This document shows, piece by piece, positions 12,813-24,404 of a stretch of DNA of 60,383 nt. Numbering within the stretch: the stretch's first letter is position 1; each line of letters starts with the position of its first letter. The position numbers and the translations under genes are program-made. The stretch lies in contig JBCDCH010000021.1 in the NCBI GenBank assembly GCA_039182125.1, positions 1 through 60,383 on the forward strand. Direction: 5' to 3'. The notes below the pieces were generated by a model. The model was not told the origin of the DNA. It made no database searches and saw only the letters and a program-made list of their open reading frames with translations. The stretch comes from Planctomycetota bacterium (lineage in GTDB: Bacteria; Planctomycetota; Phycisphaerae; Tepidisphaerales; Tepidisphaeraceae).

Positions 12813-14012
12813 ATGTTTCTGCCGTTACGAACCGATGTCCCGCTGCGTCACACGCCGTACATGAACGGCGCGTTGATCTTGGTGAACATGGTGTTGTTCG
12901 CGGCGCAGTTGATTTTCAGCCCGCGGTTCAGCTTGGACGGTGGGATCACGCGGCCGGGTTTCGATCTCACGGCGTTCGGCGCGCTCCAGCCCCTTGATCC
13001 GCACTGGTGGAACTTCATCACCTACGCGTTCATGCATTCGCAGGCCGACCTGTTGCACCTGGTGTTCAACATGGTCTTTCTCTACATCTTCGGCAACGCC
13101 GTCAACGAAAAGCTTGGGCACTGGGGTTATCTCGGGCTGTACCTTGGCGGGGCGGCCTTTGCCGGACTGGCTCACGCGCTGGGCAGTCTCAACCCCGTCA
13201 TCGGTGCGAGCGGCGCGATGTGGACCGTGATCGGTGCGTACATCGTGCTCTTCCCGCGGGCCCGGGTGACGGTGCTGTACTTTTTCTTTCTCATCGGAAC
13301 GCTGGTCATCCCGGGCCTCTGGCTCGTGGGCATCTACCTCGTGCTCGACGTGCTCGGGTTGCTGGGCATCGGCATCTTCGGCGGCGGCAACACGGCCCAT
13401 CTGGCTCACTTGGGCGGGGCATTGTTCGGCGTGGTGGTGTCGCTCGGATTGCTCTGGCTCAAGCTCCTGCCGCGCGACGACTTCGACGCGCTGGCGTTGA
13501 TCAACCGATGGAACCGTCGCCGCCAGTTCCGCGACATGACCGCCCGTGGCTTCGATCCGTTCGACGCCACCGCGCGATTCGCCGACGAGAAGAAGTCACC
13601 GGCCAAGTCTGATCCGAAGCTCGATCAAATTCAGGACTTGCGTGCGGAGATTTCCGAGACGCTCGGCACGGGCGACGAGGAAAGCGCCGCCGAGAAGTAC
13701 CGCCAACTCGTTGCCATCGACGAGCAGCAGGTGCTCAGCGCCCACAACCAACTGCTCGTCGCCGGCACTTACTACCGGCAAGGCGCCTACGCCGATGCGG
13801 CCGCCGGGTACGAACGTTACTTGCGTGTCTATCCGCGTCACGATCAGGCGGACCAGACGCGGTTTATGCTCGGTCTCATCTACAACCGCTACCTCGGCCG
13901 ACCCGAAGACGCGAAGCGTCACCTCGAAGCCGTCGTGGACCGCCTGCACGATCCGGAAGAGGTCGAGATTGCACGGGAAGAGTTGGAAAAGACCAACGTT
14001 GCAGCCAAGTAG
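12813..14012 (+). CDS. Rhomboid-family intramembrane serine protease with C-terminal TPR-like region
   Basis: A 399-aa protein. Residues ~15-215 form the rhomboid core with about six TMs. The catalytic Ser133 lies in IGASGAMWTVIGAY and the catalytic His199 in TAHLAHLGGALFG. The HSQADLLHLVFNMVFLYIFG segment matches the conserved TM2 region. After ~240 the protein is soluble and ends with a region resembling TPR helices (EKYRQLVAIDEQQ, AAAGYERYLRVYPRHDQ). It cleaves membrane substrates within the bilayer; the substrate is unknown. A second rhomboid is at 23544-24404. Confidence 0.88.
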   Translation: MFLPLRTDVPLRHTPYMNGALILVNMVLFAAQLIFSPRFSLDGGITRPGFDLTAFGALQPLDPHWWNFITYAFMHSQADLLHLVFNMVFLYIFGNAVNEKLGHWGYLGLYLGGAAFAGLAHALGSLNPVIGASGAMWTVIGAYIVLFPRARVTVLYFFFLIGTLVIPGLWLVGIYLVLDVLGLLGIGIFGGGNTAHLAHLGGALFGVVVSLGLLWLKLLPRDDFDALALINRWNRRRQFRDMTARGFDPFDATARFADEKKSPAKSDPKLDQIQDLRAEISETLGTGDEESAAEKYRQLVAIDEQQVLSAHNQLLVAGTYYRQGAYADAAAGYERYLRVYPRHDQADQTRFMLGLIYNRYLGRPEDAKRHLEAVVDRLHDPEEVEIAREELEKTNVAAK

Positions 14013-18590: not shown

Positions 18591-19052
18591 TTACATCGAC
18601 TCTTCCTGCTTGACGATCAGGTCGTACATCGCCGAGGCGTTTTCGGCGGTCTGGAGCTTGGTTCGGAAGGTGTCGATGATCATCAGCCGGCTGATCTTGC
18701 CGAGGGCGGTGATGTGCGGGCCGGTCTTGTCCGGTGGGCTGGCCAAGAGCCAGATCAGGTTGACGGGTTTGCCGTCGATCGAGGCGAAGTCGATACCCTG
18801 GGCGGGTCGACCGATGGCGATGACGAGCTGCTTGACGCCGTGGGTCTTGCCGTGAGGGATGGCGAGTCCGTTGCCGATGCCGGTGGTGCGGGTGGATTCG
18901 CGCTCGAGGATCGCGCTGAGCACCTTCTCACTGTCGGTGATCTCACCGTTACTCGCGAGCAAGTTCACCAACTCGGTGATGGCGGCGGTTTTATCCGTCG
19001 CCTGGAGAGGGGCGACGATGCTTTGCGGTTTGAGAATTTCAGTGAGGCGCAT
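18591..19052 (-). CDS. PTS EIIA-type protein (EIIA-Ntr/PtsN-like)
   Basis: A 153-aa single EIIA domain of the fructose/mannitol/Ntr class. The phosphorylation site is His67 in LAIPHGKT. The rest of the fold pattern is present (IGRPAQGIDFASIDGKPVNL, LASPPDKTGPHITAL). No EIIB or EIIC genes are nearby, so a regulatory (PtsN) role is more likely than sugar transport; this is inferred. It shares strand and close spacing with the downstream solute-binding protein gene. Confidence 0.88.
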   Translation of the reverse strand: MRLTEILKPQSIVAPLQATDKTAAITELVNLLASNGEITDSEKVLSAILERESTRTTGIGNGLAIPHGKTHGVKQLVIAIGRPAQGIDFASIDGKPVNLIWLLASPPDKTGPHITALGKISRLMIIDTFRTKLQTAENASAMYDLIVKQEESM

Positions 19053-19112: not shown

Positions 19113-19144
19113 CCGCTAGGTTTCCCCCAGACCGCTAGGTTTCC
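19113..19144. repeat. 13-bp direct repeat spanning a stop codon
   Basis: CCGCTAGGTTTCC occurs at 19113-19125 and 19132-19144, a 19-bp period. The second copy contains the stop codon of the archaemetzincin-like gene. Probably a small tandem duplication. Confidence 0.6.
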
Positions 19145-20388
19145 TCGTCGACCAGCGCGACGTGGCGGAAGTACTGCTGTTTCTCGAAGCCGGCACCGAG
19201 CGAGCCGATCACGATCCCCAGCGATGCGATGAAGCCGGCCAGCGTGAGATAGTGCATCAGGCCAACTTCCCCGATGCTTGCCGCCCAACCACCGACGACG
19301 GCGGGCGGGTAGATCACCCATGCTGCCAGCAGCACCGTGCCGAAGAGCACCGCGTAAGTCGTGGCCATGCCGATCACGATCGAGACAATGGTCGCGAGAT
19401 TGCCGACCGCCCGCTGCTCGCTGAGTAGGCGTGTTCCACGTTGGACGAGGAGCCGTTGCTTGAGGATGATGTAATGGCTGGTTCCACCGAGTGTGAGCAC
19501 CGACAGGATTAGCACCACCCACCACCGTTGGCTCATCCCCAACTCCCACGCCTCGGCGGTCATCAGCAGGATGAACAGCGTCGATGCCGCGGCGGTCGTG
19601 AGCTTGCTCAGACGTAGCGGAAACTCCCACGGGGCCATGCGGACGACGGCCTTGAAAATGTCGTCAGTGTTGTGAAACAGGACACGCAGGTGGAACTTGA
19701 TCGGCGTGCGGTGTGCCGGGCCGTGCATGCGTTCCTCGATGCGGGCGTCGGCGACTTCGTTGAGTTCGTGGGTGAGCACCTGCATCGCGTCGAGGCCGAA
19801 GTTCCGCATCCGGTCCAGGTCGGCGGCACAAGTGAGGTTGTGCATGAAGTCCCCGTCGTCATCACTGTGCGGGGCGTCGAGCAGGTGACCGATCAGGTGC
19901 AGCGCGAGCGCTTCGAGGCGTTTGGCGAGGACGTCGATTCGGACGTTGGTGTCCGTCTCGCCGGCGGCTTCCGGATCGATCCGGGCCGTCGAGATGGCGG
20001 CGACGGTCATTGCCCGGCTCGGCGCGGCCATCGCGAAAGGCTTGTCGATCGTTTTCAGGTCTTCGTCCGTGACCACGAGTGCCGCGTCCCATCGGTTTGC
20101 ATCGCGTTCACTCGCGCCGATGTCCAGGAGCGTGACGGTATCGCCGGCGACGTGTTCGGAGGCTTCGCCGCGTCGACGCAGGACCGGCGTCTTCCAGTCG
20201 AACGCGTCGAACAGCCCCGCGAGCCGATCGAGTACGGCCTTGCTCGCACGTTGCAAAGCGGCCAGGTCGACCTCGTCGGGCCGACCGACCACCACCCAGC
20301 CGATCTCGACGGTAAGCGGCGTCGGGTCACCGCTCGTCGCGGCAACGTCGTCGGGCACACCGGGCAATGGGCAGGTGGCGTAAGACAT
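19135..20388 (-). CDS. Archaemetzincin-like pseudo-peptidase fused to a multi-pass membrane domain
   Basis: A 417-aa protein. Residues ~95-185 read like an archaemetzincin: WDAALVVTDEDLKT, then AISTARIDPEA, then ALHLIGHLLDAPH with His164, His168 and His174 at exact metzincin spacing (HxxxHxxxxxH), followed by a possible Met-turn (FMHN, Met182). The catalytic Glu after the first His is Leu and the Gly at position 8 is Asp, so zinc may bind without hydrolysis. A second motif, LTHELNE, lies at 205-211. The C-terminal ~155 residues carry four to five TMs. The gene sits 11 nt after upp. The assignment comes from motif spacing, not a search. Confidence 0.6.
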   Translation of the reverse strand: MSYATCPLPGVPDDVAATSGDPTPLTVEIGWVVVGRPDEVDLAALQRASKAVLDRLAGLFDAFDWKTPVLRRRGEASEHVAGDTVTLLDIGASERDANRWDAALVVTDEDLKTIDKPFAMAAPSRAMTVAAISTARIDPEAAGETDTNVRIDVLAKRLEALALHLIGHLLDAPHSDDDGDFMHNLTCAADLDRMRNFGLDAMQVLTHELNEVADARIEERMHGPAHRTPIKFHLRVLFHNTDDIFKAVVRMAPWEFPLRLSKLTTAAASTLFILLMTAEAWELGMSQRWWVVLILSVLTLGGTSHYIILKQRLLVQRGTRLLSEQRAVGNLATIVSIVIGMATTYAVLFGTVLLAAWVIYPPAVVGGWAASIGEVGLMHYLTLAGFIASLGIVIGSLGAGFEKQQYFRHVALVDEET

Positions 20389-20399
20389 GGCGCTTGGGG

Positions 20400-21023
20400 T
20401 CAGGTGCCAAAGACCCGGTCGCCCGCATCGCCGAGTCCCGGCATGATGTAGCCTTTGGCGTTGAGTTCGCGATCGACGGCGGCGGTGTAGATCGGGATGT
20501 CGCCGTGCTGTTCGTGGAGGGCGGCGATGCCCTCAGGGGCGGCGACGAGGCAAAGGAACCGCATCGAACCCACGCCGGCATTCTTCAGGAAAGTCGCGGC
20601 CGAGATCGCGCTGCCGCCGGTCGCGAGCATCGGGTCGATCAGCAGCACCTCCGTCTCTGCGATGTCCGGCGGGAGCTTGTCGTAGTACGCCTCGGGGTCG
20701 AGCGTTGATTCGTTGCGTTCCATGCCGAGGTGACCCACGCGGGCTTCGGGCAGAATGCGCAGCACGCCGGAGGCCATCCCGAGCCCGGCCCGAAGGATCG
20801 GCACCAACGTCACCGGCCGGGCGAGTACCTGGCCGACCGTCTTCTCCATCGGCGTCTGGATCGGCCGTGGCGTCGTCGGGAACGCCCGCGTCACCTCGTA
20901 CGTCATCAGCATCGCGATCTCTTCGAGCAGTACCCGAAACGCGCGGTAGCCCGTCGCGAAGTCACGCAGTTCGGTCAGCTTGGTCTGAATGACCGGATGC
21001 TCGATGACGTGGACCTGGTGCAT
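20400..21023 (-). CDS. upp: Uracil phosphoribosyltransferase
   Basis: A 207-aa enzyme converting uracil and PRPP to UMP (pyrimidine salvage). The PRPP-binding loop is VLLIDPMLATGGSA. Other signatures are LVPILRAGLGM, GMERNEST and the C-terminal GYIMPGLGDAGDR that contacts uracil. Length matches the family. It lies in a tight minus-strand run, 12 nt after leuD and 11 nt before the archaemetzincin-like gene. Confidence 0.95.
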   Translation of the reverse strand: MHQVHVIEHPVIQTKLTELRDFATGYRAFRVLLEEIAMLMTYEVTRAFPTTPRPIQTPMEKTVGQVLARPVTLVPILRAGLGMASGVLRILPEARVGHLGMERNESTLDPEAYYDKLPPDIAETEVLLIDPMLATGGSAISAATFLKNAGVGSMRFLCLVAAPEGIAALHEQHGDIPIYTAAVDRELNAKGYIMPGLGDAGDRVFGT

Positions 21024-21035
21024 GCGGTGATCGCC

Positions 21036-21596
21036 TTACTTTGCAAGCATGCCGGTTTCACGGGCGTAGGCGAAAACCCCGCCCGCGTTGACGATGGGGA
21101 GGACGTCGCCGAGGGGTTCGAGGGAGTAGTTCTTGCCGCTGGTTTGGTTCTTGAGCGTCAGGGCGTCGAGGTCGACTTCGAGTTGATCGCCGGTTTTGAT
21201 TTCCTCGACCAGGCGGGTGAGGCATTCGAGCGGGAGCAGGTAGCCGCCGTTGACGCTGTTGCGGAAGAAGATGCGTGCGTAGAACTCGGCGATGACGCAT
21301 TTGACGCCGGCCTCGGCCAGGGCGAGCGGGGCGTGTTCGCGGGAGGAGCCGCAGCCGAAGTTCTTGCCGCCGATGATGATCGGGTACTGGCTTTTGAACT
21401 CGCCTTCGGGGACGAAGCGGATGTTGCCCTCGGGCAGGCCGGCCTCGGCTTCGGGGACGCCGCTGTTGGCGTACATGCCGAAGTACTTGCGCTCCTCATC
21501 GTCGGCCGGGTTGTAGCTGAGGAACTGGGCCGGGATGATCTGGTCGGTGTCGATGTTGTCGCCGAGGACGTACGCGGGGCCGGTGATGACAGGCAT
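21036..21596 (-). CDS. leuD: 3-isopropylmalate dehydratase small subunit (LeuD-like)
   Basis: A 186-aa swivelling-domain subunit of the aconitase superfamily: GDNIDTDQIIPAQFL, then IIGGKNFGCGSSREHAP (the hallmark), then FARIFFRN-like FYARIFFRNSVNGG. It pairs with a large 4Fe-4S subunit (leuC), not found here. Homoaconitase or dimethylmaleate hydratase small subunits look similar, so substrate is not certain. TATCGT lies 5 nt upstream of the ATG (complement of 21602-21607). Confidence 0.88.
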   Translation of the reverse strand: MPVITGPAYVLGDNIDTDQIIPAQFLSYNPADDEERKYFGMYANSGVPEAEAGLPEGNIRFVPEGEFKSQYPIIIGGKNFGCGSSREHAPLALAEAGVKCVIAEFYARIFFRNSVNGGYLLPLECLTRLVEEIKTGDQLEVDLDALTLKNQTSGKNYSLEPLGDVLPIVNAGGVFAYARETGMLAK

Positions 21597-23433: not shown

Positions 23434-23543
23434 GCCTTGAGTGTATGGGCAAGATGCGATGGTTACGAACCCCCAACCCAGGTACGGCTGTTCGGTAGCC
23501 TGGCTTGCAACCTCCGAGCCGCTCGGCGCTAACATCGTTATCA

Positions 23544-24404
23544 ATGGGCATCAATGACCGCGACTATGTGCGTAGCAGGCCGACCAACGCCGTGGGTATG
23601 AGCGGTGCGGGGATCGGCCAGATGTCCGGCTGGTCGGTCACGACTTGGTTGATCGCGATCTGTGTCGCCGTCTTCATCATCGATCTTCTCCTGATGAACA
23701 CGGACTTTGCCTATGGCAGAGGCCAGGTGAACATCGACGGGAATGTCGTCGAGGTCTATGTACCGGTGCTGGAGGCCATCGAGCTGGCCGAGCAAGGCAA
23801 GATGATCCCCATCGGCCGGGTTGCACCGATCGAGCGTTGGGGGTTCTTCAGTGCCGACACCGCCGTCTTCGGCGGCCAACTTTGGCGCTGGATCAGTTTC
23901 CAATTCCTTCATGCCGGTGGGTGGCACTTGCTCGGCAACATGATCGGGCTGTACTTCTTCGGCTCGCTCATCGAAAACTACCTCGGCCGACGGCGGTTCC
24001 TCGCGTTCTACTTGCTCTGCGGCGTGGCGGGGCCGGTGATCTACGGCATGTTCGCGTTGGCCGGCATTCTCTCGACGACGTCGAGCACGCCGCTGATCGG
24101 GGCATCGGCGGGGGTGTTCGGCATCCTCGCGGCCGCGGCGGTGATCGCGCCCAACGCCACCGAGCTGGTCTACGGCATCCTGCCAATGCAACTCAAGACC
24201 ATGGCGTTGCTCCTGCTGGGATATGCTGAGTTCATGGTGTTCACCAACGGCAACAACGCTGGCGGCGAAGCGGCCCACCTCGGCGGGGCCGCGCTGGGCT
24301 ACCTCCTCATCCGCCATCCCGAGTGGCTTAACTGGGCCGACAAGGGCCCGCACCTGGGTTTGCCCAAACCCAAGGGGCCGTCGCACATGCGGTACACCGG
24401 CTAG
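23544..24404 (+). CDS. Rhomboid-family intramembrane serine protease
   Basis: A 286-aa protein with about six to seven TMs. The catalytic Ser188 is in LIGASAGVFGILAAAAV and His245 in GEAAHLGGAALGYLL. HAGGWHLLGNMIGLYFFG matches the conserved TM2 His/Asn element. A ~55-residue periplasmic loop follows the first TM. ATG 23544 (MGINDRDYV) is chosen over 23505. It differs from the rhomboid at 12813 in lacking a TPR tail. Confidence 0.9.
   Translation: MGINDRDYVRSRPTNAVGMSGAGIGQMSGWSVTTWLIAICVAVFIIDLLLMNTDFAYGRGQVNIDGNVVEVYVPVLEAIELAEQGKMIPIGRVAPIERWGFFSADTAVFGGQLWRWISFQFLHAGGWHLLGNMIGLYFFGSLIENYLGRRRFLAFYLLCGVAGPVIYGMFALAGILSTTSSTPLIGASAGVFGILAAAAVIAPNATELVYGILPMQLKTMALLLLGYAEFMVFTNGNNAGGEAAHLGGAALGYLLIRHPEWLNWADKGPHLGLPKPKGPSHMRYTG

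Follow-up and report, generated by a model that had tools for sequence, protein, structure and literature searches.

Archaemetzincins are poorly understood. Their Cys4-bearing signature is HEXXHXXGXXHCX4CXMX17CXXC, and the canonical member AmzA displayed no activity in vitro on typical substrates (PMC3427221), so inactivity alone would not mark the protein described here as dead. In Myxococcus CarG, the catalytic Glu is replaced by Gln, and this non-proteolytic protein acts by binding CarD (PMC3427221, PMC4374960). Judging from its name and description, the NCBIfam model NF033824, "non-proteolytic archaemetzincin-like protein," probably represents CarG. No membrane-fused or planctomycete pseudo-member is described in the titles and opening lines of abstracts of the archaemetzincin papers found, and the pseudopeptidase review PMC11266112 mentions neither M54 nor CarG.

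The window, a 60,383-nucleotide stretch of planctomycete DNA (contig JBCDCH010000021.1), encodes on its minus strand a 417-aa open reading frame (ORF P0001; 19135..20388) that is a member of a 43-strong family; all features of the gene given below lie on the same minus strand. Sequence, predicted fold, and family comparisons all support a preliminary description of this ORF as a membrane-fused archaemetzincin-like pseudo-peptidase. The N-terminal domain (residues 21 to 222; 19723..20328) contains HLIGHLLDAPH (residues 164 to 174; 19867..19899), in which His164, His168, and His174 retain the zinc-type HxxxHxxxxxH spacing of HEXXHXXGXXH and are predicted to bind zinc; Leu occupies position 165 and Asp position 171. 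Met182 (19843..19845) is located eight residues past His174, the spacing of the Met-turn Met in canonical archaemetzincins, confirming the triad and following Met that had been noticed previously. The two upstream elements that had been likened to archaemetzincins, VVTDEDL (residues 105 to 111; 20056..20076) and ISTARIDP (residues 132 to 139; 19972..19995), do align by hhalign with VTDVDL and ISLxRL of the canonical proteins. Within the family, T107 is found in 41 of 43 members, L111 and S133 in all 43, and R136 and P139 each in 41. The HxxxHxxxxxH spacing arises by chance in ~1% of shuffles of the 417-aa protein, and HxxGHxxxxxH followed at the right distance by a Met in 2e-5 of shuffles; homology is a stronger argument than these chance figures.

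The window protein matched the NCBIfam archaemetzincin model NF033823 with an E value of 7.7e-7 and the myxobacterial non-proteolytic homolog model NF033824 with an E value of 1.6e-5, at scores (29.2 and 24.7) below the curated cut-offs of 145 and 250 bits, respectively, and PF07998 was not among the Pfam matches listed for it. Using hhalign, a profile of 17 relatives aligned over 123 columns with 13 canonical planctomycete archaemetzincins (E = 1.2e-10), and the metal motif and the VTDxDL and IS..R elements were in register. The same profile matched PDB entry 3LMC at E = 8e-9, 2X7M and 3ZVS being the archaemetzincins that followed, and archaemetzincin homology was detected in 18 of 20 family members. 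An AlphaFold model of the window protein (pLDDT 84.7, pTM 0.74) predicts an archaemetzincin/metzincin fold: residues 21 to 211 superimpose on AmzA 2X7M with Z = 19.2 (rmsd 2.6, 173 residues aligned), 3LMC, 4AXQ, and 3ZVS follow with Z ~16, and adamalysins form the next group with Z ~14. The comparison with AmzA structures that had been proposed as a check therefore came out in favor of the metzincin assignment. An ordinary M54 archaemetzincin (L044:5039-5959; G000:C36), with HExxHxxGxxHC and Cys4 intact and one N-terminal transmembrane (TM) segment, is encoded elsewhere in the genome. Archaemetzincin-family matches are frequent in Planctomycetota: of 392 genomes, 151 have such matches at E ≤ 0.001 (31 above the curated cut-off), and often several of them.

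The catalytic Glu, which the preliminary description had read as Leu, is indeed Leu165 in the window protein, and Glu at this second position of the motif (Glu2) is present in two of the 43 members. The other substitution that had been pointed out, Gly8 to Asp, holds for the window protein (Asp171) but is not a family trait: it is confined to the window protein and a few relatives, and Gly is retained in 23 of 43 members. The Cys4 site is absent: Ser175 and Asp180 stand where its first two Cys would be, and a lone Cys187 is out of register. With Glu2, Gly8, and Cys4 missing, the window protein is not an archaemetzincin peptidase but rather a pseudo-archaemetzincin, and its archaemetzincin-like identity combined with loss of the catalytic residue is close to certain.

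The family, which carries no name, was found through weak NF033823 matches in other planctomycete classes and spans at least eight bacterial phyla. The 43 distinct full-length relatives are from Planctomycetota, Rhodothermia, Myxococcota, Acidobacteriota, Betaproteobacteria, Verrucomicrobiota, and Cyanobacteria. Of 196 genomes sampled from the Roseithermus class, 17 encode full-length relatives, and further carriers include Myxococcales, Thermoanaerobaculia, Rhodocyclaceae, Denitromonas, Verrucomicrobiota, and Leptolyngbya-type cyanobacteria. Other Planctomycetota lineages outside the window's own class also encode full-length relatives; single-sequence searches detected no ortholog in the sampled genomes of its own class and family. 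Weak matches in that class (E values of 1e-4 to 0.1) were, where inspected, antisense ORFs, tandem HExxHxxGLxH proteases, or unrelated membrane proteins. The tandem proteins, apparently matrixin-like, form a pair of 400 and 150 aa (L005:580-1782 and L005:33-485, also in L006 and L010) that is conserved within one genus of the class. A match at L135 (G1042:C134) contains one in-frame TAG and may represent a pseudogene, a sequencing error, or the edge of an open frame. We detected no match to the family in the phage collection and no relative in viral contigs.

Among the 43 members, His1 is conserved in 38, His5 in 34 (with Asp in four others and Glu in one), His11 in 36, and the Met-turn Met in 39; the His triad is intact in 29, and 34 possess H1, [HDE]5, and H11. 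A survey of orthologs, which had also been suggested, thus found that most retain the three His, that Glu is absent from 41 of 43, and that the TM fusion is full-length in the 43 relatives. Those 41 have a hydrophobic or small residue at position 2 (L, T, C, A, M, V, S, and others), and the helix of the metal motif contains no conserved acidic substitute for Glu2 among the 43 members. In the tree of the 43 distinct members, the two main groups comprise 32 and 11 proteins. Fitch counts on the FastTree tree, with a midpoint root chosen for convenience, gave a Glu-less root with the three His intact and one gain of Glu2; the state of the triad changed eight times, corresponding to ~8 independent losses. 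The gain is located in the L063/L149 pair, in which the catalytic Glu appears to have been regained, although repeated loss of Glu instead of a single gain could also account for the distribution. These two closely paired Rhodothermia proteins (L063:801-2009 and L149:5041-6252) have a full HELGHLNGLGH amid a Glu-less tree, both without Cys4, and with this motif, peptide hydrolysis by some members is possible. His164 ranks within the 45 best-conserved positions of the family, and L111, S133, P253, W281, E324, W368, G398, and E416, among others, are invariant in all 43 members. The dead domain exhibits dN/dS values of 0.06 to 0.25 in ten close pairs, i.e., it is under purifying selection. The pseudo-archaemetzincin domain is thus maintained, though probably not for catalysis, and taken over the family, the metal site is useful but not essential.

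The membrane domain had been described as having four or five TM helices; hydropathy, the model, and charge bias all give four rather than five. These are TM1 (residues ~263 to 277; 19558..19602), TM2 (residues ~290 to 309; 19462..19521), TM3 (residues ~328 to 357; 19318..19407), and TM4 (residues ~377 to 398; 19195..19260); TM3 is preceded by a basic, probably cytosolic loop and the invariant E324. A short, probably outer loop after TM1, AEAWELG, is conserved and contains the invariant W281. On average, a member has 3.1 K and R residues ahead of TM1 and 1.6 behind TM4, and the averages for loops 1, 2, and 3 are 0.2, 4.3, and 1.2, respectively. The positive-inside rule allows topology to be read from the distribution of K and R, and on this basis both the N and C termini are probably cytosolic.

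When modeled alone, the membrane domain gave a pLDDT of 85.8; nothing in Pfam, NCBIfam, or the PDB matched it significantly. The best structural matches (Foldseek E = 2.1; VIA-align Z = 5.2) do not assign it to a known fold and do not imply that the fold is novel. The TIGR02587 family membrane protein has a weak local likeness to the first membrane helix (T-x-E-x-W-x-x-G) but is not an established relative: the match to the membrane domain was not significant (hhalign probability 2%, E = 0.023, 33 columns), and single family members gave E values of 0.0024 to 0.07. In the planctomycete family f50 (the family of G666; 120 genomes), the membrane domain was detected exclusively in the ten genomes, and at the very places, that have the full-length protein, so that the two domains seem to form a fixed pair. 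All 43 members end with [VIL][DTN][EK]E and then exactly one residue, including those whose metal site is destroyed; the window protein ends with VDEET (19138..19152), in which E416 is invariant. A role for this tail as a general zinc-site ligand is disfavored because L070 and L147 retain IDEES and VDEEI tails alongside destroyed triads. One guess is that the fixed C terminus serves as a recognition signal of the PDZ or C-end type.

In the window, the gene is third in a tight same-strand run that begins with a LeuD-like protein with an Aconitase_C domain (21036-21596) and continues with upp, encoding uracil phosphoribosyltransferase (20400..21023), 11 bp upstream of the pseudo-archaemetzincin gene; a PTS EIIA type 2 (PTS_EIIA_2) protein (18591..19052) is encoded 82 bp downstream. 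The adjacency to upp in the preliminary description is correct for this genome, but upp is absent from every other locus examined and the neighbor therefore carries no weight; the PTS EIIA neighbor is not conserved. Two rhomboid genes (12813-14012 and 23505-24404) flank the pseudo-archaemetzincin gene within ~7 kb. A Pfam tally of 107 neighbors across the family revealed only scattered repeats and no universal partner. A Na/Ca-exchanger-family antiporter is encoded no more than ~1 kb from the family gene in L065, L070, and L161, which represent three phyla; a CPA2 antiporter with TrkA domains is found head-to-head with it in six related Rhodothermia loci (by Pfam scan in L152 only); and a chromate transporter is encoded upstream in L059. 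Proteolysis genes are also recurrent, including M16 peptidases in a Rubrivirga-like clade, rhomboid in L151 and the L152 group, and an HtrA-type protease near plasmid members. From the neighbors alone, one may speculate that the family acts in envelope or cation stress and in quality control of membrane proteins.

Additional, eroded relatives are encoded on actinobacterial plasmids of Rhodococcus, Nocardia, Arthrobacter, and Prescottella (tblastn E values of 5e-15 to 5e-6). They align with the family over their full length (hhalign E = 2.8e-26, 342 columns), their metal-site region is largely deleted or replaced, the match to archaemetzincins is lost, and their C terminus is unlike that of the family. 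Three of the plasmids encode DnaK-GrpE-DnaJ-CbpM-ClpB, an HtrA-type protease, and general stress genes within ~13 kb, and the chaperone cluster is missing from two others. Hsp20, FtsH, and a mechanosensitive-channel-domain protein are encoded near the family gene on the Arthrobacter plasmid, and Hsp20 is within 20 kb of the family gene on one plasmid. No ClpK/ClpG is annotated near the family gene on the three chaperone-bearing plasmids.

We favor, as somewhat probable, a non-proteolytic CarG-like scaffold or regulatory domain at the cytosolic face of the membrane. A dedicated four-helix domain would tether an archaemetzincin-fold domain without the catalytic Glu to the inner membrane, on its cytosolic side, and the face of the former substrate cleft would bind a partner protein, without proteolysis, as in Myxococcus CarG. 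Bound zinc may be a structural support in most lineages, and partner binding would be coupled to the membrane domain. The precedent of CarG, in which an archaemetzincin with a replaced Glu acts through protein contact, favors the scaffold; against it, most loci share no neighbor, and the antiporter link is confined to a minority of loci. The preliminary description had offered a zinc sensor or a substrate-binding scaffold, and the latter fits better. As a sensor of zinc or another metal, the Glu-less site of three His would bind cytosolic Zn2+ reversibly and signal to the membrane domain, e.g., by gating transport, and the high conservation of His164, the triad retained in 29 members (H1/[HDE]5/H11 in 34), the recurrence of cation antiporters among the neighbors, and a membrane domain that could be a small transporter or channel are consistent with this. 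However, the triad has been broken ~8 times while the fold, the membrane domain, and the C terminus were kept, with W281, E324, W368, G398, and E416 invariant. Zinc sensing thus fails as a family-wide role. Of the exchanger-adjacent members, L161 and L070 have a broken site and L065 has His5 replaced by Asp, and neither a metal regulator nor a metal transporter is a consistent neighbor. Sensing is possible in triad-intact members, unlikely across the family, and on the whole unlikely.

In another reading, the protein would be an accessory subunit of a cation antiporter: the four-helix domain would bind the antiporter, and the pseudo-peptidase would be its cytosolic regulator. Of five carrier genomes that have a close homolog of the L070 exchanger (at least 47% identity), three (L070's own included), from three phyla, encode it within ~1 kb of the pseudo-archaemetzincin gene; the head-to-head CPA2 genes and the chromate transporter add to this. 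Yet an adjacent antiporter is missing at most loci, the window's own genome has no match to the L070 exchanger at E ≤ 1e-5, and such an accessory subunit is improbable. We give little credence to a bacterial counterpart of iRhoms, in which the dead domain and the [VIL]DEE[TSL]-COOH terminus would form an adaptor for membrane proteases or chaperones, presenting or shielding substrates for rhomboid, HtrA, FtsH, or M16 and tying proteolysis to ion or envelope stress. Continued peptidase or hydrolase activity, with another acidic residue replacing Glu2 or residual activity on a narrow substrate, is very unlikely: the Met-turn and triad are retained in most members and Glu2 is present in L063 and L149, but position 2 is otherwise hydrophobic or small, no acidic substitute is conserved, and several members also lack zinc ligands. 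A decaying, functionless relic of a membrane archaemetzincin is scarcely credible. Erosion of the site, furthest in the plasmid relatives, would fit decay, but the dN/dS values, intact ORFs, exact C terminus, and retention over several phyla argue against it. Assignment of the family to any specific pathway is doubtful.

A widespread family under selection, which retains the fold and, in most members, the metal ligands but rarely has the catalytic Glu, points to a non-proteolytic use of the archaemetzincin fold well beyond CarG. Its members grade naturally from an intact HELGHLNGLGH, by way of HxxGH, to an erased site, which suits the family for locating function within the fold, and the four-helix domain and invariant C-terminal tail are new targets for annotation.

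The window protein and AmzA (MEROPS M54, PF07998, NF033823; 2X7M, 3LMC, 3ZVS, 4AXQ) have in common the fold (Z of 16 to 19), the spacing of the three His, the Met-turn, and the DL and S..R elements, whereas the window protein lacks the catalytic Glu, Gly8, and Cys4, is fused to four membrane helices, and scores under the curated cut-offs. The iRhoms and other membrane pseudoproteases likewise have a dead protease fold in the membrane under selection, but the likeness is an analogy only: iRhoms belong to an unrelated protease class, and their dead domain is itself intramembrane, whereas that of the window protein is probably cytosolic. The part of PMC8290217 considered here describes tLST stress-tolerance islands as combining chaperones, FtsH, DegP, and the KefB antiporter, which resembles the surroundings of the actinobacterial plasmid relatives (chaperones and an HtrA-type protease; Hsp20 and FtsH in Arthrobacter); any link would be drawn from three plasmids only, the tLST core (dna-hsp20-clpK/clpG) contains ClpK/ClpG where the plasmids instead have DnaK-GrpE-DnaJ-ClpB, and the family is not seen among the tLST components given there. 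CarG, ~170 aa and found only in myxobacteria, retains and requires Cys4 (PMC3427221), which the window protein lacks; both are archaemetzincin-like proteins in which the catalytic Glu has been replaced, by Gln in CarG and by Leu in the window protein.
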